From: Methylophaga sp.
Lineage (GTDB): Bacteria > Pseudomonadota > Gammaproteobacteria > Nitrosococcales > Methylophagaceae
NCBI GenBank assembly: GCA_014762585.1
Contig: JABURN010000160.1
Location: 1-26,267 of the forward strand
Direction of reading: 5' to 3'
Length of the DNA stretch: 26,267 nucleotides
The notes under the pieces were generated by a model. The model was not told the origin of the DNA. It saw only the letters and a program-made list of their open reading frames with translations, and did no database searches. Positions 11,870 to 26,267 of this stretch are shown here, in pieces. Both the position numbers and the translations under genes were made by a program. Position 1 is the stretch's first letter; the number at the start of each line of letters is the position of its first letter.

Positions 11870-13084
11870 TCAACGCAACTGAGTATTCAGCCCCTGCCGG
11901 TAGGCATTCACTGCCGGCAGCAGGGCTGAAATCATGGCGGCCAGAACTATTCCCAGCAGCAATCGCCACGTGCCGGGCTGCAACAGGCTCTCGGAAAGAA
12001 ACAGCCCGAATTGCGACAGTAGCCATTCGCGCAGCCAGATATCCCCGGCCCATAAAGCTAGCAAAGCGACAATAATCGACGAGGCGGTAATGAGCAGTGC
12101 TTCCAGTTGTAGCAAAGCAAACAAAAAGCCGGGCCGGTAACCCAGTGCTCTCAGCACAGCCAACTCATGTCGCCGCTCACGCATGGACAGCAGCAACACA
12201 TTGACCATGCCGATCAGCGCCCCCAGCAATACCAGCAGCGATATCACCCATAAGGTCTGCTCAACCCCGCCCAGCATTGACCACAAACTACTAAGCGCCA
12301 CACCCGGCAGAATGGCCTGCAGGGCCTCATCTGAATAGGTATTGATTTCCCGCTGCAGCGTGAAGGTTTTGATTTTGGAATGAAGACCGAGTAACACCGC
12401 AGTGACTGACTGCGGGCTCAGGTCCGGCGCCGTATTAGCACCGGGAAAGTCGGCATGCATTGCTTCCAGACCAGTCAGACTGATGAAGATGGATCGATCC
12501 ACAGGAGTACCGGTGGGTTTGAGAATACCGCTGATTTGAAACGGGTGATTCTCGTGGCGGCTGAAACTGGTATCGGCAATGCCGTGGGCCAGCACAATCT
12601 TATCACCGTTCTGATAACCCAGACTCGCTGCGACCTCTGCCCCGACGACCGCATCATAGGTGTCGCGGAAAGCCTGCCCGGAAGCAAATTCAAGTGAGTG
12701 ATCAGAGCGAAAACGAAAATGCTCAAACAATTGCTGTTCGCTTCCCACCACCCGATATCCTCTGTGCGAGTCTCCCAAAGATAAGGGAATGGTCCAGTCG
12801 ACGTCCTGATGCTGCTTCAGCATCATGTAACTGTCCCAACTCAGATTATGGGTTGGCACACCAATATGAAAAACCGAATACAGCAGCAGATTGATCTGCC
12901 CGGTTCGCGGGCCAACGAGCAGGTCCACATCGGACACACTCTGCTGAAAACTGTCCTTGGCCTGCTGGCGAATGTTTTCCACACTGAGCAGGACAAACAC
13001 GCTCACACTCATCATCAGTACGGTCAGCAATACTGTGCCCAGGCGGGATCCCAGACTATGCCAGGCGAGTTTAAGCAGCATCAT
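11870..13084 (-). CDS. FtsX/MacB-like ABC transporter permease of a zrg-like zinc system
   Basis: Inner-membrane permease of the LolC/MacB/FtsX type: one N-terminal membrane helix (about 15-35), a large periplasmic domain (about 40-270), and three C-terminal helices (around 275-300, 325-350 and 370-395), with the conserved MRERRHELAVLRALGY before helix 3. Length 404 residues. It overlaps the ATPase stop codon by 14 bp, so the two are translated together. Such permeases pair with LolD-like ATPases and usually act on periplasmic proteins or lipids rather than carrying ions. In Vibrio cholerae a comparable pair belongs to the zinc-regulated zrgABCDE locus, which agrees with DUF3299, DUF2796 and COG0523 genes next door. 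A second ATG (13081) is possible. Confidence 0.85.
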   Translation of the reverse strand: MMLLKLAWHSLGSRLGTVLLTVLMMSVSVFVLLSVENIRQQAKDSFQQSVSDVDLLVGPRTGQINLLLYSVFHIGVPTHNLSWDSYMMLKQHQDVDWTIPLSLGDSHRGYRVVGSEQQLFEHFRFRSDHSLEFASGQAFRDTYDAVVGAEVAASLGYQNGDKIVLAHGIADTSFSRHENHPFQISGILKPTGTPVDRSIFISLTGLEAMHADFPGANTAPDLSPQSVTAVLLGLHSKIKTFTLQREINTYSDEALQAILPGVALSSLWSMLGGVEQTLWVISLLVLLGALIGMVNVLLLSMRERRHELAVLRALGYRPGFLFALLQLEALLITASSIIVALLALWAGDIWLREWLLSQFGLFLSESLLQPGTWRLLLGIVLAAMISALLPAVNAYRQGLNTQLR

Positions 13085-13736
13085 GTTGCAGTGCTCCTAT
13101 CTCGACATGACGGCCGAAATGCGACCGCAGGCTGGCATCATGACTGACAAAAATCAGGCTGGTCCGTGCCAGCACCAGTTGCTGCATCAGTAAATCGATA
13201 AATTTATCCCGATGCCCAGTATCGAGGGCTGAAGTTGGCTCATCCACCAGTAACAATTGAGGTTCATTAATCAGTGCACGGGCAATCGCCACCCGCTGCT
13301 GCTGACCGACACTGAGTTGAGCGGCCTTGCGTCCGGCTTCCATGTCCGAAAGGCCCAGTTTATCGAGCAGTCGCAAGGCGCGTTTGTCCGCTTCATGGGT
13401 CGATAAGGCTGAAAAATGACTCGCAAGACGAATATTGTCAGCCACAGACAAGTAAGGAATGAGATTAAACTGCTGAAACACCATGCCGATATGACGCGCC
13501 CGAAAGGCATCACGTCGGCGGGCGGATAATTGATTGATCGGTGTATCCAGCACACGGATTGTGCCCTGCTGCGGCGTGATAATGCCGGCCAGTAAATTGA
13601 TCAGAGTGGATTTGCCGCTACCCGAGGGTGCAGTCAGAAAGATCGCTTCTCCGGCTTCGACTTGCCAGTGCGGTATATTGAGCAGGTCTTTATCCGCCCC
13701 CGGATAACGGAATGTCAGATCTTCGATAAGAAGCAT
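13071..13736 (-). CDS. LolD/MacB-type ABC ATPase of a zrg-like zinc system
   Basis: ATP-binding subunit for the adjoining FtsX-like permease. Walker A is TAPSGSGKST (about 34-43), the Q-loop is MVFQQFNLIPYLS, the signature LSVGQQQRVAIARAL, Walker B LLLVDEPTSALD, and the H-loop FVSHD. About 221 residues, the normal LolD/MacB size. I place the start at the ATG at 13736 (MLLIEDLTFRYPG); a GTG two codons upstream (13742) is an alternative, and neither has a clear ribosome binding site. It is divergent from the DUF3299 gene, and a Zur-like palindrome lies between them. Confidence 0.9.
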   Translation of the reverse strand: MLLIEDLTFRYPGADKDLLNIPHWQVEAGEAIFLTAPSGSGKSTLINLLAGIITPQQGTIRVLDTPINQLSARRRDAFRARHIGMVFQQFNLIPYLSVADNIRLASHFSALSTHEADKRALRLLDKLGLSDMEAGRKAAQLSVGQQQRVAIARALINEPQLLLVDEPTSALDTGHRDKFIDLLMQQLVLARTSLIFVSHDASLRSHFGRHVEIGALQHDAA

Positions 13737-13769
13737 AATCACACAGTCAATTCATGTACAATCACGATG

Positions 13770-13788
13770 AATGATACAACATATCAAG
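13770..13788. promoter_or_regulatory. candidate Zur operator, variant (ABC operon / DUF3299)
   Basis: AATGATACAACATATCAAG contains the inverted arms ATGATA / TATCAA around five bases. It matches the 19-bp island palindrome at about 13 of 19 positions, including TGATA-N5-TATCA. It lies between the divergent ABC ATPase and DUF3299 genes, so one site could control both. The weakest arm pairing of the four sites. Confidence 0.5.
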
Positions 13789-13805
13789 CCAATAACGAGT
13801 CTCGT

Positions 13806-14384
13806 ATGCCTATCATAATGTCTACTGGTTTTCGTCATCTGCTTTTTATCATGCTGCTCTCAGCATCAGGGCTGACACTGGCAAAAGATTACCAGCGTAT
13901 CAACTGGGTCGATTTATTGCCGGAGAAAGATTTGAAAGCACTGGAAAATCCGCCTGACTATATCAGTGACATTGAAGACGGCAGCCCGGAAGATTCACTC
14001 AGCAATAAAATGTTAAGCGCACTGGAACAGTCGACGATGCCGGACGACGCTTATCAGCGGGCGTTGGTGTCGACGGATGTGGTGGAAGATTTTGACGGCA
14101 AGTCGATAAGACTGCCAGGTTTTATCGTACCGATAGAGATGAATGAGAAACAGCAAGTGACTGAGTTTTTCCTGGTGCCGTATTTCGGCGCCTGTATTCA
14201 TCTGCCACCGCCGCCACCCAACCAGATTATTTACGTCACCTCAGAAAAGGGCATTCTGGTCGAAGATATCTATAATGCCTACTGGCTGGAAGGCACCATC
14301 AAAACAAGCTTTACCGAGAACGAGATCGCACAGTCAGCCTACAGCATGACAGCAGAAACGGTTGAGCTCTATACCGAAGAATAA
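13806..14384 (+). CDS. DUF3299 periplasmic protein of a zrg-like zinc system
   Basis: An exported protein of unknown biochemical role from the DUF3299 family, found repeatedly with zinc-regulated FtsX-type transporters. The start chosen at 13806 gives a signal peptide (MPIIMSTGFRHLLFIMLLSA, likely cut near LTLA). The frame stays open upstream to 13662, but that part overlaps the ABC ATPase. The hallmark motif is FGACIHLPPPPPNQIIYV near residue 130, and GFIVPIEM precedes it. The 3' end overlaps the convergent COG0523 gene by 16 bp. Its Cys and His could bind metal, but no role is proven. Confidence 0.83.
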   Translation: MPIIMSTGFRHLLFIMLLSASGLTLAKDYQRINWVDLLPEKDLKALENPPDYISDIEDGSPEDSLSNKMLSALEQSTMPDDAYQRALVSTDVVEDFDGKSIRLPGFIVPIEMNEKQQVTEFFLVPYFGACIHLPPPPPNQIIYVTSEKGILVEDIYNAYWLEGTIKTSFTENEIAQSAYSMTAETVELYTEE

Positions 14385-15391
14385 TTGCAGCGACAGGCGA
14401 TTAAGACCTCTTCCAATGCCTCGATGTCCGGCTTTTGCCGACACAACAGTTCCAGCCGGCTTTCCCTTTCAACTGTCTGCCTGATGCTTGTACTTAACTG
14501 GCCTTCTATCTGGTTGATGACCAGGCAGCCATCGCGGGTATTGATGACTGCCTTCAGCCTGTCTGCCTGCTGCGAATGGCACCAATCAAGCAGAAGTGCT
14601 TCATCAAAATGCCACTGTTCAGCAAAGCGCCAGCCGCAACTGTACCAGCCATCCAGTTGCTGTTCTTCTCTCAAAATTCCGCTTTCTGGCAACGGGTTGT
14701 CGGTTGATTCAAGATTGAGGACACTCGGCGGATTGGCCCATTTCGCCTGATCAAATTTGGCGGCAGCGATCAGCCACTGCGGCTCGATCTGTGCTTTTTC
14801 ACAATATCTGACCGGCAATGCATCCAGGTGCAATGCCAGCAGTGTTTTTTCCATCTGCTGAATATCACTGAAATCCGACAAGTCGGTTTTATTCACCACC
14901 AGCGTGTCGGCAACAAGCAGTTGCTGTTGAAACACAGGATGGTCAGTATATCGCGGGTCTTTAAAGTGTCTGGCGTCGACCAACGTCAGCGTGGCTCGAA
15001 TATCCAGCAACCCACGGTAATTAGGTCCGGCCAGTGAGGCGATAACCTCTTCCGGGTGACCCAGTCCGCTGGGTTCAATCAGTAATCGGTCGAGTTTGCG
15101 TCTTCTCAGCAGTTGATTGAGGGCGACCTGCATGGGCAGACCTGCTGAACAGCACATACAGCCTCCGGCGACTTCTCGAATTTCAACGCGCTTGTGTTGA
15201 TTTGAAGCAGCCAGAATTTGACGATCAATTCCTACTTTGCCGAACTCATTAATCAATACCGCCCAGTTCTCGTCGTCCGGTTTATGTTTGAGCAGATGTT
15301 GAATGGCTGAGGTTTTACCGACACCGAGAAAACCGGTGATGACATTGGTTGGCAGTGCACGTTGAATCATGCTGGGATTGGATGCTGTCAT
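14369..15391 (-). CDS. COG0523 (CobW/P47K) G3E GTPase, zinc-island copy 1
   Basis: Cytoplasmic GTPase of the COG0523 family, whose zinc-related members act as metallochaperones that deliver zinc to client enzymes. Walker A is GFLGVGKTS (about 20-28), the metal-binding motif is GCMCC (about 76-80), EPSGLGHPEEV is the G3-type region, and NKTDL gives base recognition. The C-terminal CobW_C domain is short and Cys-rich (CRCNYSSV at the end). Length 340 residues. It is the last gene after merC-zrgA, 24 bp behind zrgA, and probably shares their Zur-like operator. It differs from the other COG0523 protein in the window in both the motif (GCMCC versus GCICC) and the C-terminus, so it is not a recent duplicate. 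Confidence 0.88.
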   Translation of the reverse strand: MTASNPSMIQRALPTNVITGFLGVGKTSAIQHLLKHKPDDENWAVLINEFGKVGIDRQILAASNQHKRVEIREVAGGCMCCSAGLPMQVALNQLLRRRKLDRLLIEPSGLGHPEEVIASLAGPNYRGLLDIRATLTLVDARHFKDPRYTDHPVFQQQLLVADTLVVNKTDLSDFSDIQQMEKTLLALHLDALPVRYCEKAQIEPQWLIAAAKFDQAKWANPPSVLNLESTDNPLPESGILREEQQLDGWYSCGWRFAEQWHFDEALLLDWCHSQQADRLKAVINTRDGCLVINQIEGQLSTSIRQTVERESRLELLCRQKPDIEALEEVLIACRCNYSSV

Positions 15392-15415: not shown

Positions 15416-15994
15416 TTATCTGAGTGGAATAATGTCTTTGTCGCTAGACAGGATAAGCTCTGACTGACCTTGTTCCGTAATCATCTGCACGGTGAGTTTT
15501 TGCAGAGCGGGATAAGCAGAGAACAATTGCGGCTTGATGCTGACTTTTTCACCCATGACACTGCACTGAAGATGATATTCGCTGTGCCACTCTGCATGCG
15601 CATGGTTTGCTTGAGAAAAAGGCGAGGTTGTGTGTTGTTCGATCTGTGTACAGCTGGCATCAGTCAACTCAAACAAGGCCTGATAATCCATGAGGTTCTG
15701 CTGTAAATCCTGAAAAGCCTGCTTTTGTTCAGGCGTGGTCGGTTTATGTTCAAAGCCCAGCAGATTTTCCAGAGGCGAAATAAATTCGGCCAGAATCAAT
15801 GCACCATCAATCACGATATTGAGCGCTGCTTCCCCATGCACATGGGCTGCTACAGAGGCCTGATCTTGATGCTCATGACCATGCCTGTCATCAGCCTGAG
15901 CCTTTGACGATATCAACGTTAAAAGTCCCGTCAGCATGAGACCGAAGAGCATTTTATTACCCGAACCGACAGACCCGAACATGGCTGATTTCAT
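15416..15994 (-). CDS. zrgA: ZrgA-family (DUF2796) zinc uptake protein
   Basis: Periplasmic protein linked to zinc acquisition; the DUF2796 family includes ZrgA of Vibrio cholerae. A hydrophobic signal peptide (about residues 13-34, cut near SKAQA) is followed by a His-rich mature start (DDRHGHEHQDQ, then HVHGEAALNIV, the family hallmark). A second His cluster NHAHAEWHSEYH lies near residues 129-140. The His/Asp-rich loop seen in many relatives is short here. Length 192 residues. AGGAGG lies 7 nt before the ATG. Middle gene of merC-zrgA-COG0523, 42 bp after merC. It probably binds zinc for the adjoining transport system. Confidence 0.88.
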   Translation of the reverse strand: MKSAMFGSVGSGNKMLFGLMLTGLLTLISSKAQADDRHGHEHQDQASVAAHVHGEAALNIVIDGALILAEFISPLENLLGFEHKPTTPEQKQAFQDLQQNLMDYQALFELTDASCTQIEQHTTSPFSQANHAHAEWHSEYHLQCSVMGEKVSIKPQLFSAYPALQKLTVQMITEQGQSELILSSDKDIIPLR

Positions 15995-16036: not shown

Positions 16037-16414
16037 TTAAGCTTGTGACGCAGTCATTTTAAGCCGCTGACGCTGCAACAGTACACTGTTCCAGCTGTGC
16101 GCCAGAATCAGTAAGCTCGCGGCTGGTATGGTGATCCATAACTCCATGGTTTCAGGCAGAAAAAAAGCGCTGCACAGGGCGGCAATGCCCAGCACTGCCA
16201 GCACCATCGGCCAGTGGGTGCGATGACTGCGATAGGCTGATGGCAGACTAAACACCGCCAACGCCACGACCGGAAATAACATCACAATGTGGACCCATTC
16301 AGACTCCAGCATGTCACCGACAAAGCCCATGACGCCGACGCCGATTATCAGTGGTGTTAGCACACAGTGCACCAGACACAGTCCGGAAAAGAACACAGCC
16401 ATTTTATCTTTCAT
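16037..16414 (-). CDS. MerC-like membrane protein
   Basis: A small inner-membrane protein of 125 residues with about four hydrophobic helices and the MerC signature CLVHCVLTP (about 13-21), whose Cys pair binds mercury in true MerC proteins. No mer resistance genes are nearby. The gene sits first in merC-zrgA-COG0523, right behind a Zur-like palindrome, so a role with zinc or another thiophilic metal is more likely than mercury resistance. A clear GGAGG lies 7 nt before the ATG. MerC-domain genes in predicted Zur regulons of other proteobacteria are known to me only in general terms. Confidence 0.8.
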   Translation of the reverse strand: MKDKMAVFFSGLCLVHCVLTPLIIGVGVMGFVGDMLESEWVHIVMLFPVVALAVFSLPSAYRSHRTHWPMVLAVLGIAALCSAFFLPETMELWITIPAASLLILAHSWNSVLLQRQRLKMTASQA

Positions 16415-16429
16415 TCATGCCTCCAAAGT

Positions 16430-16448
16430 TATGATGTAACGTATCAAT
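16430..16448. promoter_or_regulatory. candidate Zur operator, variant (merC-zrgA-cobW)
   Basis: TATGATGTAACGTATCAAT matches the island palindrome at about 15 of 19 positions, keeping TATGAT and CGTATCA. It lies 16 bp before the merC start, in the 62-bp gap behind fhcA. This suggests that merC-zrgA-COG0523 has its own zinc-responsive promoter besides possible read-through from fhcA. Confidence 0.6.
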
Positions 16449-16476
16449 AAAGAATAATAAAACACGTTAAAGAGTG

Positions 16477-18138
16477 TTAATTTGAAAAAGCGCCACTGAC
16501 TTTGTGCGTCTGGAATGACCTGTCATGATCAGCATCACTCTCCGTGACGCCATAATTGCTTAGTCTCAAGCTGTAATAGCGATCGAAATATGACTGGATA
16601 TGGCTTTCAATATTTCGGTCATAGCCTACATTCAGCGCCAGTGTCCGACCCGGGACAGAACTCAGAATAGCGCCCTCGTCCAGCACCAGTTGGCCATTCT
16701 TGAAAACTTTATCAGCGCGGCGGAACATGGCGGCTTTGTCCCCCTGCTCCCGGTATACTGCAATATCTGCTCTCGCTCCGGGTTTCAGGTGGCCACGATC
16801 ATGCTGCCCGAGTAATTTTGACGGTGCAGCCCTCGTCATCACCGCCACTTCATACAAACTGTACTCACGCTTGATATCGGCCAGCAGCGTCATTTCAGCG
16901 ATATCCGGGTGGAGATTAGACAGACATTCCATCCGGTATTCATAATCCATCAGCAACCTGAGCAAATCCGGATAACGGGTGAAAGGCGCCCCATTGGGAT
17001 GATCGGTGGTAAAAAACAACCGCCAGGGATCATCACAGAGCAGAAATATTTCCAGTCCGATGGCCCACTGCAGGCCGTTAACAAAGCCGGCAGATTTGTA
17101 GTGATAAGGCACGATGCCGCCACTGCCTTCATTTTCAGCATGCCAGACATGCCACTTTTGTGGTGAGGCATCATTGCGACGATCAAACTGGGCCATGACA
17201 TCACCAGACAGCGTGACCGTCTGACCGAATAACACCTGGCCGACATCCATGGTGATATTGGGATGACGATGAAATGCTTCCATTAATCTTGCTGCCGAGG
17301 AGGAAAAGCCGTATTTTCCCTCATCGCCATAGCCGTAGAACTGCACATGCGCCAGATGCATTGGCAGCCCCTGCGCGGCTTCCATGGTATCGACAATGGT
17401 TTGAATGTTGCCGGGCGTACCGAGGTTGTTGCAATGCACATGCACAGGATGCGGCAGGCCCGTCTGCACCACCGCCGTTTGCAGGTGCTGTAATAGCTGA
17501 CGTGAGGAGATGCCATACTCCGGCACCACATCATCAAGACCAAAGGTCGACGCGCCTTTTTTAAAGGCCTGTGATCCGCCGGCATTGATGACTTTCAAAC
17601 CCAAGGCCTTGGTTTTGTTCATTGTCCAGCTGACATAATCATTGATTTGCGACTGACTGGCATCGGCTCTTAACAGACGCACCAGAAAGTCATCACTCCC
17701 CAGCACGGCCAGCGCCGCCGTATCGATAATGGGAATATCAGCGAGCTCAGCATGAACCTGTGGGGCATTAACCGGTAACATCGCGGGTTCCAGCACCATG
17801 CTATAGCCCATTTCGGTATAGCGATAACCGGTCTCAAAGGAAGACCACTTGGCATTGGCAAACGGCGTTTTCCTATTCCGCTCAAGCTGACTGCGGTGCT
17901 GTTCAGGCAGCATCAGCCTGGCAGTATTGACGTTGCCACCGGCAATATGACTATGAACATCCAGAGCCCCGGCCATGGTCACCGCCCCTTCAAGATCGTA
18001 AACCGTGGCGTTCTGCTGCAACTCATAGGCTGGTTCGCTGATAATGCGGTCACCGGCGATCCAGAGCGTGGTCAGTTCACCGTTAGCCTGCTGCAGAGGA
18101 TCATATATTCGGGCGTTTTTTAAACAGCTAATCGTCAT
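16477..18138 (-). CDS. fhcA: formylmethanofuran dehydrogenase / formyltransferase-hydrolase subunit A, orphan
   Basis: Metal-dependent amidohydrolase subunit of the FwdA/FhcA family. In H4MPT-using methylotrophs the FhcABCD complex releases formate from the formylated methanofuran analogue. Binuclear-zinc ligands appear intact: VHSHIAGG (His62, His64), the Lys of LKVINAGG (Lys182, probably carbamylated), HVHCNNLGTPGN (His233, His235), HLAHVQFYG (His264) and TTDHPNGAP (Asp379). The family C-terminus DRYYSLRLSNYGV is present, and 553 residues is full length. The ATG at 18138 begins the family-like sequence; a TTG at 18177 opens the frame longer, and neither has a good ribosome binding site. The usual partners fhcB, C and D are absent here. 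Instead it sits among zinc-starvation genes behind the best palindrome of the window. It may be a zinc-responsive paralogue or a relocated sole copy. Confidence 0.92.
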   Translation of the reverse strand: MTISCLKNARIYDPLQQANGELTTLWIAGDRIISEPAYELQQNATVYDLEGAVTMAGALDVHSHIAGGNVNTARLMLPEQHRSQLERNRKTPFANAKWSSFETGYRYTEMGYSMVLEPAMLPVNAPQVHAELADIPIIDTAALAVLGSDDFLVRLLRADASQSQINDYVSWTMNKTKALGLKVINAGGSQAFKKGASTFGLDDVVPEYGISSRQLLQHLQTAVVQTGLPHPVHVHCNNLGTPGNIQTIVDTMEAAQGLPMHLAHVQFYGYGDEGKYGFSSSAARLMEAFHRHPNITMDVGQVLFGQTVTLSGDVMAQFDRRNDASPQKWHVWHAENEGSGGIVPYHYKSAGFVNGLQWAIGLEIFLLCDDPWRLFFTTDHPNGAPFTRYPDLLRLLMDYEYRMECLSNLHPDIAEMTLLADIKREYSLYEVAVMTRAAPSKLLGQHDRGHLKPGARADIAVYREQGDKAAMFRRADKVFKNGQLVLDEGAILSSVPGRTLALNVGYDRNIESHIQSYFDRYYSLRLSNYGVTESDADHDRSFQTHKVSGAFSN

Positions 18139-18232
18139 CAGATATTTTTGTTTTGTCGGTTGTTGCAGGCCCTTCAAGCTCGGGGCGTCGGCAGTACTGA
18201 AGTCAGCGGGCCATCCGGATAAGAGTAATAAT

Positions 18233-18257
18233 AAATATGATATATCGTATCATATTT
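18233..18257. promoter_or_regulatory. candidate Zur operator and promoter of fhcA (strongest site)
   Basis: A perfect inverted repeat with 10-bp arms (AAATATGATA and TATCATATTT) around TATCG. Its central 19 bases are identical to the site before dksA2. On the minus strand TTTATG, 17 bases, then TATCAT could be the fhcA promoter, so the palindrome would cover the spacer and -10. It resembles the gammaproteobacterial Zur core GTTATA-N-TATAAC at about 8 of 12 arm positions, and zur lies 0.6 kb away. The site is shared with the divergent DUF3617 gene. Confidence 0.72.
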
Positions 18258-18349: not shown

Positions 18350-18775
18350 ATGCGTCGACCATTTTTCTTTTTTGCCCTCTGCGCTGCTCTGATGGCGCCC
18401 ATCGCCAGCGCCGAAACGCCGGATTTGAAACCGGGTATATGGGTTTACACCCACAACACGCAGATCGAAGGGCCGATGAAAATTGCACCTCAGACCAGTG
18501 AAAACCGGCAGTGCGTCACTCAGGCTGATCTGGACAAGGGCGTTGATGTGCTTGAGATTCCCAAAAACTGCAAACTGACCCGTGTTGACATAAAGAGCGA
18601 GCGCGCCGACTATGCCGCCATCTGCGATATGCAGGGCATGCAAACCCGTTTCAGTGGTTACGCCACCTTCCATGGTGAACGTATGCAGGGCCAGATGAAC
18701 AGTGAAATGGATACCCCACTGGGCAAAATGACCATGAAAATGGATTATCAGGCCCGTCGCCAGGGCGAGTGTTAA
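18350..18775 (+). CDS. DUF3617 exported protein
   Basis: A predicted periplasmic protein of 141 residues and unknown function. The signal peptide is MRRPFFFFALCAALMAPIAS with cleavage after ASA, and the mature part begins with LKPGIWVYT, as in DUF3617 proteins (LKPGLWE-like start). Three cysteines (QCVT, NCKL, ICDM) and a final Cys at the C-terminus could form disulfides. AGGAG lies 8-12 nt before the ATG. A TATAAT at 18306-18311 may be its -10, with no good -35. It is divergent from fhcA and converges on zur with a 20-bp gap. Whether the nearby palindrome regulates it is open. Confidence 0.75.
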   Translation: MRRPFFFFALCAALMAPIASAETPDLKPGIWVYTHNTQIEGPMKIAPQTSENRQCVTQADLDKGVDVLEIPKNCKLTRVDIKSERADYAAICDMQGMQTRFSGYATFHGERMQGQMNSEMDTPLGKMTMKMDYQARRQGEC

Positions 18776-18795: not shown

Positions 18796-19248
18796 TCAGT
18801 GTGACTGGCAGTTTTGACACAGGCCATGCAGCTCCAGTTGCGGGCTATTGAGCTGGAAGTGATTATCCTGAATGCTTTTTTCCAAGGCATTGATCAGTCG
18901 GTTATCAATACCGACTTCCCGGACCGACTGACAGTTATCACAAATCAAAAACTGCGGCGTTTCATGGCCGTGATCGCAGGCAATGTGAGAGCAGGCGATA
19001 AACTTGTTGGCAGAGGCCAGCTTGTGAACCAGGCCCTGGGAAATCAGAAACTCGAGCATGCGGTAGACCGACATCGCCGGAATTTTCTCATTAAGTAATT
19101 GCTGGTAATGCTCGGCAATTTCATAAGCTGACAGCGGCTGAGGTTTTTCCAGCAGTATTTCCAGCACATGGCGACGTTTTGGAGTCAGTCTGCCCCCTTG
19201 CTCGAGACAGGTCTTTTCCGCTTGCTGAAGAATTTTGTCAGTTTTCAT
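18796..19248 (-). CDS. zur: zinc uptake regulator Zur (Fur family)
   Basis: Fur-family repressor that binds DNA when loaded with zinc and shuts off zinc-uptake and zinc-sparing genes. The winged-helix part (residues 1-80) includes LTPKRRHVLEILLE and SVYRMLEFL. The metal domain shows HIACDHGHE for the regulatory site and the structural pairs CDNC and CQNC near the C-terminus. The length is 150 residues. Zur rather than Fur is supported by the H.ACDHGHE segment and by the neighbours. I start at the ATG (19248); a GTG five codons upstream is an alternative. It lies 90 bp after DUF1826 on the same strand and may be read with that operon. No palindrome is seen directly before it. Confidence 0.92.
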   Translation of the reverse strand: MKTDKILQQAEKTCLEQGGRLTPKRRHVLEILLEKPQPLSAYEIAEHYQQLLNEKIPAMSVYRMLEFLISQGLVHKLASANKFIACSHIACDHGHETPQFLICDNCQSVREVGIDNRLINALEKSIQDNHFQLNSPQLELHGLCQNCQSH

Positions 19249-19337
19249 GCTATTTCTGCCCACAGTGCATATGTTTCAAGGCCGGCTTGCCATCAGATTC
19301 TAACAGTAAACCGCCCTGCCGACATGCGGTTTGCAGC

Positions 19338-19967
19338 TCAAACCAGATCCAGGGTCAGTAACAGGCGCCTGTTTTCAGCGGTTGCCTGTGCCGAACGGTG
19401 CACGATGCCCTTCACGTCTTCCTGGGGCCACTCCTGGCCTTTGAAGAGTAGTACCTCACCGGCACTGGCTTGCTGCAGCCCGGCCGGATCACGCACTACC
19501 TGTTCGTGCTGCCGCACTTTGAGCGCCTGACGATTAATATTATCTTCCGTTAGCCATTCGGTGGCTGGCCCGTGATAAGTCGTCACCATACGTGCCATGA
19601 CTTTATCTACATGAAACAGCGGGCACAAAGTTCTGTCGACCAGTTCCAGACGCATCCCGACATGGGTCTGATCAAATAAATCCGCAAACATCGTGACCAG
19701 TTTCTGCACATCCGCCTGTAGTGCGCCATAATAGCTCGCCGGCCATTGGGCCTTGAGCCAGTCACTGACCTCTTCAGGTCGCAGGATGACACGAAAAGTG
19801 AAGGTTTTCTGTTGTTGCAACAGGCTGCTTATGTTCTGTTCCAGTTCATCACTCAACTGGCGCTGCCAGATAGCAAAGTCGACACCGGGCTGATAAATCT
19901 CGCTCAGTACCAGTGGATTATCGGCCATCATCACTGGCTGGACAATTTGATTCGCGAGGGCTGACAT
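19338..19967 (-). CDS. DUF1826 protein, zinc-starvation operon
   Basis: A protein of 209 residues of the DUF1826 family, with no known activity. Family-like blocks are QKTFTFRVILRPEEVSDWL, DQTHVGMRLELVDRTLCP and FHVDKVMARMVTTYHGPATEWL; the last carries His and Asp residues that could bind metal. The C-terminal EVLLFKGQEW and GIVHRSAQ resemble the distal part of a cupin-like oxygenase fold, but that is only an impression. Its ATG overlaps the COG0523 stop by one base (TAATG), so they are translationally coupled. In Pseudomonas aeruginosa, genes for a hypothetical protein, a COG0523 GTPase and DksA2 lie together in a Zur-regulated block (PA5534-PA5536), matching this order. Confidence 0.78.
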   Translation of the reverse strand: MSALANQIVQPVMMADNPLVLSEIYQPGVDFAIWQRQLSDELEQNISSLLQQQKTFTFRVILRPEEVSDWLKAQWPASYYGALQADVQKLVTMFADLFDQTHVGMRLELVDRTLCPLFHVDKVMARMVTTYHGPATEWLTEDNINRQALKVRQHEQVVRDPAGLQQASAGEVLLFKGQEWPQEDVKGIVHRSAQATAENRRLLLTLDLV

Positions 19968-21178
19968 TATGCCTGCTCCCAGTGCGGAAACGGATCCGGC
20001 ATGGTTTGCCAGAGGGCTTTGCCAGCCAGAAGCTCCTCGTCACTGATAAGACAGTCATCCAGCATGCCTTTGACCTCAGCTTCATCCATATTCTGCCCGA
20101 TAAACACCAGTTCCTGGCGCATATCGCCGAAGGGCTCCACCCAGTTTTCCATGATCATCTGTCTGGATTCTTCGTCCTCCGGCCAGCGGTTTTCAGGCAC
20201 AGCGCGCCAGAACATGCCGGCAAAGCCATGTCTTGCAATTCCGCCAGCCTGACTCCAACTACCGGCAAACTGCGGCCGGCTGGCCAGCCAGAAGTAGCCC
20301 TTGGAACGGATCAATTTGCCACAGGGCCATTCCTGATGCAGAAAGTCATAAAACTTTTCCGGATTGAACGGCTTGCGTGCGGTATAGGTAAAGCTGCTGA
20401 TGCCATATTCCTCTGTCTCAGGAATATGCTCACCGCGAACTTCCCTCAGCCAGCCCGGTGACTGTTCGGCCTTTTCAAAATCAAATTTCCCGGTTGCCAG
20501 TACCTGTTTGAGATCGACCTGCCCCTGTTCAATGGGAATAATCTCGGCTTCCGGGTTCAGACTTTTGATAACGCCAGTGACGGCTCTGATTTGCTCAGGA
20601 CTGCACAGATCGGTCTTGCTGATTAATATCACATCGCAGAACTCAATCTGATCCACCAATAAATCGGTGACACTGCGATTGTCGTCCTCTCCCAGAGATT
20701 CACCGGTCTCCTGCAGCATATCGGCCTGCTGGAAATCATTAAGAAAATTGGCGGCATCAACCACGGTTACCAGCGTATCCAGTCTGGCCACTTCCGACAG
20801 GCTCTGACCCGATTCATCGGCAAAGGTAAATGTCTCTGCTACCGGCAAGGGCTCGGATATCCCGGTGGATTCAATGACAAGATAATCGAATCGGCCCTCA
20901 TCAGCGAGACGGCGAACCTCGAGCAACAGATCCTCACGCAGAGTGCAACAAATGCAACCGTTACTCATCTCCACCAGCTTTTCTTCAGCGCGGTTGAAAT
21001 CTACCTCATGATTAATCTGCTGGGCATCGATATTGATTTCACTCATATCGTTGACGATAACGGCCACTCTGCGGCCCTCTCGATTATTGAGAATATGATT
21101 CAGTACTGTGGTTTTACCGGCACCTAGAAACCCTGATAAAACGGTCACGGGCAAGCGTGAATCGGACTCAATGGTCAT
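19967..21178 (-). CDS. COG0523 (ZigA-like) G3E GTPase, zinc-island copy 2
   Basis: A larger COG0523 metallochaperone GTPase of 403 residues. Walker A is [10 protein letters not shown] (about 13-22), the metal motif GCICC (about 72-76), then [11 protein letters not shown], base recognition SKTDL, and a long CobW_C domain (about 245-400) with [11 protein letters not shown]. This layout is that of the zinc-starvation ZigA type in Pseudomonas and Acinetobacter, which supports zinc-dependent enzymes when zinc is scarce. The ATG at 21178 has AAAGGA nearby; an upstream in-frame ATG (21199) lacks a site. It overlaps the end of dksA2 by 11 bp and the start of DUF1826 by 1 bp, giving one operon. Confidence 0.9.
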
Positions 21179-21566
21179 AGTGACTTTCCTTTCTTTCATT
21201 AATGGTTTTGACGTCGGCGCAATACTCGGCGGTCGGCCGAATCAGCAGCCGGGCAAGTCCAATCGCTTCACCGGTCTGCAGACAATAGCCATAGTCACCC
21301 TGCCTGATTCGCTGACGGGCGGCGTCGATTTTAGGGATCAGCTGACGTTTTCTGTCGGCGATGCGGATGGCGATAATAGCCTCCTCCTCCAAGGTCGCTC
21401 TGTCGCTCATATCGCTTACCCTCCCCTGGCTTATTTCCGCTCTCAGGGTTTCAATTTCTGTCAGTGTTTCCTGTCTTAACCGTTGCAGCCTGAGATCAAA
21501 AAATGCCAGTTGCTCGGCATTCATATACTCCTCGTGAGCCGCATTCAGCAGCGTGCTCTCGTCCAT
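21168..21566 (-). CDS. dksA2: DksA2-like transcription factor lacking half of the zinc-finger cysteines
   Basis: A DksA/TraR protein of 132 residues that binds the secondary channel of RNA polymerase in the ppGpp response. The coiled coil (about 15-95) has [12 protein letters not shown] and ATLEEEA. In the C-terminal finger the canonical DksA has four Cys. Here [15 protein letters not shown] keeps the first Cys with Thr at the second position, and PTAEYCADV keeps the third with Val at the fourth. Two-Cys forms such as P. aeruginosa DksA2 work without zinc and are Zur-repressed. The start at 21566 has GGAG 9 nt upstream; a longer frame with TTG at 21605 is less likely. First gene of dksA2-COG0523-DUF1826, behind a Zur-like palindrome. 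Confidence 0.9.
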
Positions 21567-21651
21567 ATCAATGCTCCATGCGTCAGCCTGAAACGCCCCT
21601 GCCAATAGTCAGAGCCTGAGACAGTCGGCATTAGGCTACCCGCTATTAATT

Positions 21652-21694
21652 TATGATATATCGTATCATATAAAATCTTTAGCGACACAAGCAA
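21652..21694 (-). promoter_or_regulatory. promoter and candidate Zur operator of dksA2 operon
   Basis: The palindrome TATGATATATCGTATCATA (21652-21670) has 7-bp arms and is identical over all 19 bases to the core of the fhcA site. On the minus strand TTGCTT (21694-21689), an 18-base spacer and TATGAT (21670-21665) make a plausible sigma70 promoter whose -10 lies inside the palindrome, as expected for repression. It sits in the 145-bp gap between the greB stop and the dksA2 ATG, so the operon is separate from greB. Confidence 0.72.
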
Positions 21695-24559: not shown

Positions 24560-26267
24560 CTAGCGATCGGACTTTTTATTCATTTGCGAGAATGAAGGAA
24601 TCGAGGACAGAATGGACTTCAATTCATCCTTTTCGACTGGTTTGCTCTGATCACGCTTATCATCTCCGGATGCCGGCTCACTCTGATCCAATTGCCTTAT
24701 TTCCTCAAACATGGACTCCAGATCTTCCTCTGAAGGCAGAGGCTCTTCGGTCAAGTCATCCCACATTTCAGATAAGGCGGCTTTGGAATCCGTGAGCTTG
24801 ACCGGCGGACCGGTATCGATATCTTCATCCTCTACTTCACTGCTGTCTGTGTCAGCTTGTCCTGTCTGCCGGGTATCTGACTGAGCTTGATCCTGGTCCT
24901 CTGGCGTTGACGCAAGGTCAAATGCATTACCCTGTTCCCAGGCAGCGGCCAGGGCGGCTTCCCTCTCTGCCTCAGCCTGTTCCTGATCGGCGATTTGGCT
25001 CGCCTGGGTTTCAGAAAATGCGACAAAACCATCATCCTGAGCTTCTTCCTGCTGCACTTCTGCAACTGACGGTTCAGCTTCGTCGGGCAGTTGTTGTTCG
25101 CTCTGGGCCAGCATCCCGGCTTCATCAGTCTCTTCTGCTACCTGCTGTTCGCCTGAGGCCGGTTCTTCAGCCGGGATGGTTTCATCTGCTTCAGCTGCTA
25201 TCTGTTCAGAGTCTTCAACACTAACAGCCTGTTCCTGCTCAAGCTGTTGCTCCCATTCAGCGGCGATGTTTGCTTCATCATCAGGCTCATTGCCGGCTGA
25301 TGATTCATGCCTGGCGGGTTCATCCTGCGCCGCGCTGTCTGCTTTTACTTCGGGGGATGTGAAAGACGGCGATTCATTGACCAGCTGCTGCTCCCATTCT
25401 GCCAGCATCGCAGCTTCGTCCTCAGTATCTGTTGTGTCGTTCTGACTATCAGGTTCTGAACTATCATCAGCTTCGGACGGCGCTTCAGTGACGCTGGACG
25501 TTGTGAGTTCTTGCTCCCATTGTGCAGCCAGTTCTGCTTCATCATCCAGCGGCGCAGTATTCGCCTGAGGGTTTTCGATATTATCCGTAATTGATTCAGG
25601 CGCAAGCTCAGCTAGCTCTTCCGCTGTCTCCGCATCTGACTTTTCTGGCAATTGAGGTTCTAACTCAGCCGCCATGCCATTTTCATCTGTCAGCCCCTCG
25701 CTGGTCTCCGTATCAGCATTGAGTTCAGTTCCCGGGTCCAGCTCGGTACCCGTCAATTCTACCTGATCCGTAAGCTGTTGCTCCCACTCGGCTGCAAGCG
25801 TGGCTTCATCTTCAGCATCCTCTGCTGATGCCGGCTCGTTCAAGTCAGTAGTTTCTGGCGAAAGTGCTTCAATCGCTTTTTCTTCTGCCTCTAATGAACT
25901 GTAACCTGCTTCCTGCAACGACGGCTCTGTAAGCTCATCCGCCTCAGGCGTTAGTTCAATCTCACCAGTCTGCGCTTTCTCTTCCGGTGAAACATTGAGC
26001 GCCTGCTCGTATGCCTCGTTAATATTCTGCGTGGTCTCGAGCTCTGGCTGTTCCTCCTCAGCTTTTTGTAACTGGCGAGCTTCAGCCTCGGCTTTAAGCT
26101 GTGCTGTGCGGGCACGTAATTTGGCCCGCAAGTCTTCCAGTTCAGAGCGTGCTGCTTGCTGTTCTGCGACAGGCTCTACTTCTGGGTAATCAATCGCCAG
26201 CTCAGTTTCAGACTCGGCTTCGGCTTCGGCTTCGGCTTCGGCTTCGGCTTCGGCTTCGGCTTCGGCT
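24560..26267 (-). CDS. very acidic repeat protein with WEQQL motifs, N-terminus outside window
   Basis: I do not recognise this protein. The open frame runs from beyond the window edge to a stop at 24560, giving at least 568 residues rich in Glu, Asp, Ala and Gln. From the edge it reads (Ala-Glu)n, then ESETELAIDYPEVEPV, then a charged probable coiled coil (SELEDLRAKLRARTAQLKAE). A low-complexity acidic part follows, holding a repeated motif DEAxLAAEWEQQL with intact copies near 25772-25810, 25505-25543, 25382-25420 and 25241-25279 and weaker ones elsewhere. The tail has EMWDDLTEEPL, LESMFEEIRQL and a basic end MNKKSDR. It is probably largely disordered, with short helical binding motifs. No signal peptide can be judged. 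Transcription ends at the hairpin at 24490-24536. Confidence 0.7.
   Translation of the reverse strand, partial: AEAEAEAEAEAEAEAEAESETELAIDYPEVEPVAEQQAARSELEDLRAKLRARTAQLKAEAEARQLQKAEEEQPELETTQNINEAYEQALNVSPEEKAQTGEIELTPEADELTEPSLQEAGYSSLEAEEKAIEALSPETTDLNEPASAEDAEDEATLAAEWEQQLTDQVELTGTELDPGTELNADTETSEGLTDENGMAAELEPQLPEKSDAETAEELAELAPESITDNIENPQANTAPLDDEAELAAQWEQELTTSSVTEAPSEADDSSEPDSQNDTTDTEDEAAMLAEWEQQLVNESPSFTSPEVKADSAAQDEPARHESSAGNEPDDEANIAAEWEQQLEQEQAVSVEDSEQIAAEADETIPAEEPASGEQQVAEETDEAGMLAQSEQQLPDEAEPSVAEVQQEEAQDDGFVAFSETQASQIADQEQAEAEREAALAAAWEQGNAFDLASTPEDQDQAQSDTRQTGQADTDSSEVEDEDIDTGPPVKLTDSKAALSEMWDDLTEEPLPSEEDLESMFEEIRQLDQSEPASGDDKRDQSKPVEKDELKSILSSIPSFSQMNKKSDR
25241..25810 (-). 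repeat. diverged protein-level repeats, DEAxLAAEWEQQL
   Basis: Four good copies of a 13-residue motif (DEATLAAEWEQQL, DEAELAAQWEQEL, DEAAMLAEWEQQL, DEANIAAEWEQQL), spaced about 40-90 residues apart in acidic linkers. Two degraded copies have lost the Trp (GMAAELEPQL, GMLAQSEQQL), and two related ones lie further on (AALAAAWEQ, AALSEMWDDL). The DNA copies differ in codons, so they are old and kept by selection on the motif rather than recent duplications. Confidence 0.75.
26216..26267. repeat. GGCTTC hexanucleotide tandem repeat, runs off the window
   Basis: Eight full copies of GGCTTC plus GGCT reach the last base. On the minus strand they encode alternating Ala-Glu in the acidic protein. 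Because the unit is six bases, slippage would change length by two residues without breaking the frame. The full repeat length cannot be seen, and the window may stop here because the repeat broke an assembly. Confidence 0.95.

Follow-up and report, generated by a model that had tools for sequence, protein, structure and literature searches.

Spare enzymes under Zur control are a known kind of paralogue. In the part of Haas et al. 2009 (PMC2770081) available to us, nine Zur-linked paralogue families of gamma- and betaproteobacteria are described, the zinc ligands being lost in some and kept in others, and the idea of an extra dose is raised for HisI, CysRS and other ligand-keeping paralogues. 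FolE2 and DksA2 are also described as Zur-regulated substitutes in the accessible part of PMC6103462. Here, we describe fhcA2, a gene for a formyltransferase/hydrolase subunit A found in a 26,267-nucleotide stretch of Methylophaga sp. DNA (assembly GCA_014762585.1, contig JABURN010000160.1, the whole stretch being called the window), and we propose, with a probability of roughly 0.75, that its product is a Zur-derepressed replacement for the A subunit of the formyltransferase/hydrolase complex. A subunit of this one-carbon (C1) complex appears to be a new client for such control. The words "formyl" and "amidohydrolase" have 0 occurrences each in the available portions of the two articles cited above, and no report of a Zur-linked fhcA was found among the literature matches listed (titles and abstract beginnings, open-access coverage), in agreement with the original prediction made from the window, which held a C1 amidohydrolase in this role to be undescribed.

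The fhcA2 gene and its linkage to zinc-starvation genes

The fhcA2 gene lies at 16477..18138 on the reverse strand, within an open reading frame spanning 16477-18177 whose best start is the ATG at 18138, and encodes 553 residues. Its assignment as a full-length FwdA/FhcA with zinc ligands was borne out: the protein scores 644 bits against TIGR03121 (curated cut-off 392.75), which places it in the FhcA/FwdA family, and the six ligands expected of that family are present as H62, H64, K182, H235, H264 and D379, positions that were set by alignment and from the ligands of FwdA. All six are conserved, by alignment, in 71/71 aligned FhcA2 copies. None of these copies shows the ligand loss typical of zinc-independent paralogues of the PyrC2, DksA2 or HemB2 type, and loss of zinc ligands in FhcA2 was rejected on this evidence. 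The binuclear site of FhcA/FwdA is made of four His, one Asp and a carboxylysine Lys (PMC11656701, in the part available); since this site is kept, FhcA2 probably does not work metal-free. The fold is that of a full-length FhcA and extends past the core shared by amidohydrolases, the other listed amidohydrolases aligning for 315-392 residues only, and the protein retains 115 of the 128 operon-invariant columns. At two altered positions, E131 has mostly become Q and Y426 mostly F. One loop carries the clade-specific residues A316, R320 and D323, which were rejected as a metal clue because they lie in or next to low-confidence modelled stretches.

None of the scanned genes of the window was identified as fhcB, C or D. 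All three are found on another contig (C158) of the same draft genome (G000; 2.37 Mb, 260 contigs, 86% complete), in an fhcB-A-D-C operon whose second fhcA is 49% identical to fhcA2. As a canonical fhcA is present elsewhere in the genome, the window gene is a spare. The predicted separation of this fhcA from its partners thus stands, and a search for a second fhcA beside fhcBCD, which had been put forward as a check, found one; for this genome, that result refutes the suggestion that the window gene might have no second fhcA beside it in the genome. The window gene is surrounded by genes for a Zur-like regulator, ZigA, a DUF1826 protein, DksA2, ZrgA, a MerC-like protein and a COG0523 GTPase, in line with the zinc-starvation island that had been read there.

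This linkage recurs across genomes. We compared 73 fhcA2 loci (51 copies from a methanotroph-like order, one from genome G158, the window, and 20 further loci of the window's family) with operon fhcA loci, calling zinc-starvation genes by tblastn at 60 bits or more with references taken from fhcA2 loci. Of the 25 operon loci given, L238, the fhcDC place of genome G948, holds no FhcA, leaving 24 controls. At least one zinc-starvation gene lies within 6 kb in 69/73 fhcA2 loci (20/21 in the window's family and 49/52 outside it) vs 0/24 operon loci, a difference whose significance tests overstate the evidence because the loci are related by descent, and such a gene is adjacent and on the same strand in 67/73. 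The loci fall into at least six gene arrangements, nearly all of them zinc-linked; this variety can be taken as more independent support for the linkage. A rearrangement confined to the window's genome, which the original prediction had named as a possible undoing of its idea, was rejected on these counts. The hypothesis of a paralogue for zinc-poor conditions is favoured by this recurrent linkage and by the second fhcA.

Family models name a ZnuD-like receptor, a ZupT-like ZIP transporter and an AztABC-like importer among the fhcA2 neighbours, all below their cut-offs, and FolE2 at 296 bits (cut-off 215). The neighbours also include several COG0523 GTPases and HisI, the latter no more than 6 kb away in L049, a locus of the window's family, and in roughly one in four of the 52 loci from outside that family (11 + 2, with two references).

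A Zur-box-like palindrome, TATGATATATCGTATCATAT, is found at 18236..18255, some 100 bp ahead of the fhcA2 start codon, overlapping a weak -10-like hexamer at 18254-18249, and again before dksA2 at 21652..21671. The two copies had been predicted to be identical over 19 bp; the identity is real and the length is 20 bp. A weaker copy, with 2 mismatches to the 15-mer, precedes merC-zrgA-cobW at 16430..16449, and another with 0 mismatches lies at 13772..13786 on the reverse strand. The pattern TGATATRTYRTATCA, at up to 2 mismatches, has 8 matches in the window (4 sites, both strands) vs 0.19 expected, and its exact matches in the 2.37-Mb draft genome number only 3, all inside the window; this enrichment is descriptive and not independent, because the pattern was devised after the sites of the window and of its relatives had been seen. 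One site with 1 mismatch elsewhere in the genome (G000:C104:3011) sits in a gene cluster resembling that of methylamine dehydrogenase (mau).

Among the relatives, the density of palindromes of the form TGTTATANNATAACA, with 3 mismatches allowed at most, is 17.0 per 100 kb for the 52 loci from outside the window's family vs 3.0 for 13 operon loci, the two sets being unmatched in base composition. Upstream of the transcription unit, a strict Zur-box-like palindrome is present in 31/73 fhcA2 units (8/21 + 23/52), with 23/73 search regions clipped by a contig or locus end, vs 0/23 operon controls used in this test.

Distribution and phylogeny of fhcA2

In a search of 58 genomes, an fhcA2-type copy was found in 19/24 genomes of the window's genus (at least 72% identical) and in 2/11 other genomes of its family (71% and 64%). 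Carriers include Methylophaga sp. Biocath_Gamma_020, M. thiooxydans DMS010 and M. lonarensis MPL, among others. In the methanotroph-like order, 48/201 genomes hold 51 copies, the hit list showing a clear identity gap (at least 69% vs at most 57%). The methane monooxygenase family PF02461 was detected in 29 of the 31 tested among these 48 genomes and was absent from the 4 others tested (three of the window's genus and G158; 35 in all). One further family is represented by the copy of G158, 55% identical; among the 53 genomes of its order G158 alone gave an fhcA2-type match, the others being about 37-50% identical, a sorting made by identity and not by tree. A draw of 398 genomes across the phylum yielded 17 further FhcA genomes, each single-copy. 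The fhcD gene is present in 68/70 fhcA2 genomes and in 63/63 of the near-complete ones.

Some copies stand apart. The fhcA2 at G927:C12:16037-17659 has one in-frame TAA, and an fhcB at G960:C1:1463330-1464595 has one in-frame TGA; either stop may reflect recoding, a sequencing error or a pseudogene. Diverged FhcA proteins, 37-41% identical to fhcA2, are encoded at L106:15664-17328 and in genomes of the G158 order, and the one in L106 is accompanied by a separate set of fhcB, D and C, close to the canonical operon.

Both types of FhcA were placed in trees, as the original prediction had advised. The 223 FhcA hits were reduced to 156 by dropping near-identical rows and rows shorter than 450 residues, and 71 of the 73 fhcA2 copies were aligned, L189 being left out for an in-frame stop and L046 for being equal to L042 over the compared stretch. 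Trees were built from 93 and 55 of the 156 rows, with 47 and 25 of the 71 fhcA2 rows. The fhcA2 rows form one clade with Shimodaira-Hasegawa-like approximate likelihood-ratio support of 98 in the larger tree and 100/98 in the smaller, and this clade takes in the extra copies L192 and L193, which lack zinc neighbours. The FhcA1 copies of the fhcA2 genomes form a separate group (100/100, 55-row tree); the idea that fhcA2 arose by duplication of the resident fhcA was rejected on this basis. The nearest operon copies come from Methylocapsa, Jiella, other genomes of the phylum and some gammaproteobacteria with fhcA beside fhcB (four single-copy). Which operon lineage is nearest differs between trees: alphaproteobacterial-type rows stand next to fhcA2 with a support of 90 in the 93-row tree and not in the 55-row tree. 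The branch of L101 is long in either tree. Within the clade, L049 of the window's family nests among the methanotroph-like copies, suggesting horizontal transfer. The trees point to a gene that was probably recruited once from an FhcA lineage other than FhcA1 and then spread. Two points go beyond what had been predicted: fhcA2 did not arise by copying of the host's own fhcA, and it is widespread in methanotroph-like genomes.

Proposed role of FhcA2 and its alternatives

We infer Zur binding, induction, complex assembly and the identity of the metal along the following lines. When zinc is plentiful, Zn-Zur would occupy the palindrome over the promoter, fhcA2 would be off and the operon-encoded FhcA1 would be used. 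As zinc falls, Zur would release fhcA2 jointly with dksA2, zigA/cobW and zrgA, and elsewhere with folE2, hisI2 and zinc importers. FhcA2 would then assemble with FhcB, C and D, and formyl-methylofuran hydrolysis, hence formaldehyde oxidation linked to tetrahydromethanopterin (H4MPT), would keep going, probably through better metal capture, the help of the neighbouring COG0523 chaperone or the use of another divalent metal. In the fullest form of this model, which we hold only tentatively and at somewhat less than even odds, FhcA2 carrying another metal or loaded by COG0523 would displace FhcA1 in a hybrid FhcA2-B-C-D complex during zinc shortage and sustain methane or methanol oxidation, and lineages of the G948 type would have replaced the standard subunit altogether.

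Several points weigh against a replacement subunit under Zur control. A promoter-like site at the fhcA2 palindrome did not rise above chance, and 42/73 fhcA2 units gave no strict box. The list of zinc genes came from the fhcA2 loci themselves, so that the comparison of counts holds for this list alone. Four of the 73 loci (L040, L192, L193 and L198) lack any zinc gene closer than 6 kb; the last three are additional copies in genomes that also hold a zinc-linked fhcA2. FhcA2 comes from a lineage different from that of the FhcA1 that normally partners FhcB, C and D. As the metal ligands are kept, unlike those of PyrC2 and DksA2, zinc independence is not visible. The draft genome G948 holds fhcB, C and D with fhcA2 as the sole FhcA found, and its lack of fhcA1 could be due to a gap in the assembly.

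The kept ligands leave room for dose compensation, in which FhcA2 would be an ordinary zinc enzyme whose extra amount captures scarce zinc, and not a lower-zinc version. This overlaps with the replacement subunit as a sub-case of it, and we regard it as possible if not probable. A raised copy number is proposed for ligand-conserving Zur-linked paralogues in the available part of PMC2770081, and FhcA2 has all six ligands; the recruitment of a diverged protein of another lineage, kept as one clade, speaks weakly against it, since extra copies of fhcA1 would need none.

It is unlikely, in our view, that FhcA2 has left the complex and hydrolyses some other N-formyl or amide compound to the benefit of the zinc-starved cell, perhaps to recycle zinc ligands or cofactor precursors. 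With the references used, none of the 73 fhcA2 loci showed fhcB, C or D alongside; the difference in lineage from the FhcA1 of the would-be partners, the changes at E131 and Y426 and the clade-specific loop fit such a departure as well. However, the ligands, most operon-invariant columns and the full FhcA fold are retained, fhcD accompanies fhcA2 in nearly all genomes, and the only FhcA found in G948 is FhcA2. That fhcA2 is a passive hitchhiker, carried among zinc genes by chance or by transfer of a shared island and not zinc-regulated, is very improbable: the nesting of L049 does attest horizontal transfer, but the arrangements are many and nearly all zinc-linked, the solo fhcA2 of L040 (genome G028) keeps its own box 90-95 nt upstream, and purifying selection is suggested by a dN/dS (ratio of nonsynonymous to synonymous substitution rates) of 0.033 for one pair, an estimate limited by saturated dS (2.6), with 2/4 pairs yielding no dS.

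The genomic finding is a strong one that recurs widely, and the replacement of FhcA1 by FhcA2 under zinc shortage is the reading we prefer. Many methylotrophs and aerobic methanotrophs depend chiefly on H4MPT-linked formaldehyde oxidation for energy and detoxification. If the reading is true, a C1 pathway would join the short list of processes that bacteria guard against zinc shortage, zinc would be a factor whose control over the oxidation of methane and methanol in lakes, in soils and at sea can be tested, and a clear assay would be at hand for what the COG0523 chaperones adjacent to fhcA2 load.

Surroundings of fhcA2 and known systems

Divergently from fhcA2, and sharing its intergenic region, a DUF3617 protein is encoded at 18350..18775 on the forward strand. 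The other neighbours described here with a strand are on the reverse strand. The zur gene, a Fur-family regulator (18796..19263), has Zur as its best NCBIfam match at 100 bits, below the cut-off of 167. Beside it lies a DUF1826 gene (19338..19967), which adjoins zigA (19967..21199), a COG0523 zinc metallochaperone GTPase scoring 702 bits (cut-off 600). DUF1826 is a recurrent partner of fhcA2, lying within 6 kb of it in 45/52 loci outside the window's family, including among loci L174-L222 and L099-L101, and is a candidate zinc-starvation protein of unknown function. The dksA2 gene (21168..21605) encodes a DksA paralogue whose zinc finger reads C..T and C..V where four cysteines are expected, so that 2/4 of them are replaced. 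On the other side of fhcA2 lie genes for a MerC-like membrane protein (16037..16414), for ZrgA of the zinc uptake protein family (15416..15994; above the Pfam cut-off, 93 bits in NCBIfam, below 185) and for a second COG0523/CobW GTPase (14369..15391).

Further away, at 11870-14384, a DUF3299 gene and an ATP-binding cassette (ABC) ATPase/FtsX permease pair flank the exact box at 13772. The set looks like a zinc-controlled transporter and resembles Vibrio ZrgB-E. The 523-residue open reading frame at 24560-26131 has no Pfam match at E 0.001. In some Methylophaga genomes, a run of genes on one strand between zur and fhcA2 (L035:486-6988 and L042:491-7008, families scanned in L035) encodes an ABC ATPase, a TonB receptor, a pair of ABC-2/DUF3526 permeases and a COG0523 GTPase; it may be an operon for the uptake of zinc chelates. 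In L192, which with L193 makes up the extra copies of G960/G925, the fhcA2-clade gene follows genes for a dehydratase (IlvD/Edd family) and a class-III aminotransferase.

FhcA2 has its family, fold and metal ligands in common with FhcA of the Methylorubrum extorquens FhcABCD complex (PDB 6s6y) and with methanogen FwdA, whereas operon fhcA copies adjoin fhcB, and mostly fhcD and fhcC. FolE2 and DksA2 both co-occur with fhcA2. The fold of FolE2 differs from that of FolE, and DksA2 loses zinc-finger cysteines, whereas FhcA2 keeps its metal ligands. Closer in this respect are the HisI2, CysRS, ThrRS, QueD and AmiA paralogues, Zur-linked spares that keep their zinc ligands according to the available part of PMC2770081; they serve other pathways and include no C1 enzyme. 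PyrC2, in the same source, is like FhcA2 an amidohydrolase-superfamily paralogue of a binuclear zinc enzyme, and in gamma- and betaproteobacteria its gene is located with Zur boxes and COG0523 genes. PyrC2 has not conserved its zinc ligands, whereas FhcA2 keeps six, and it belongs to pyrimidine synthesis, whereas FhcA2 would be a complex subunit in C1 metabolism.
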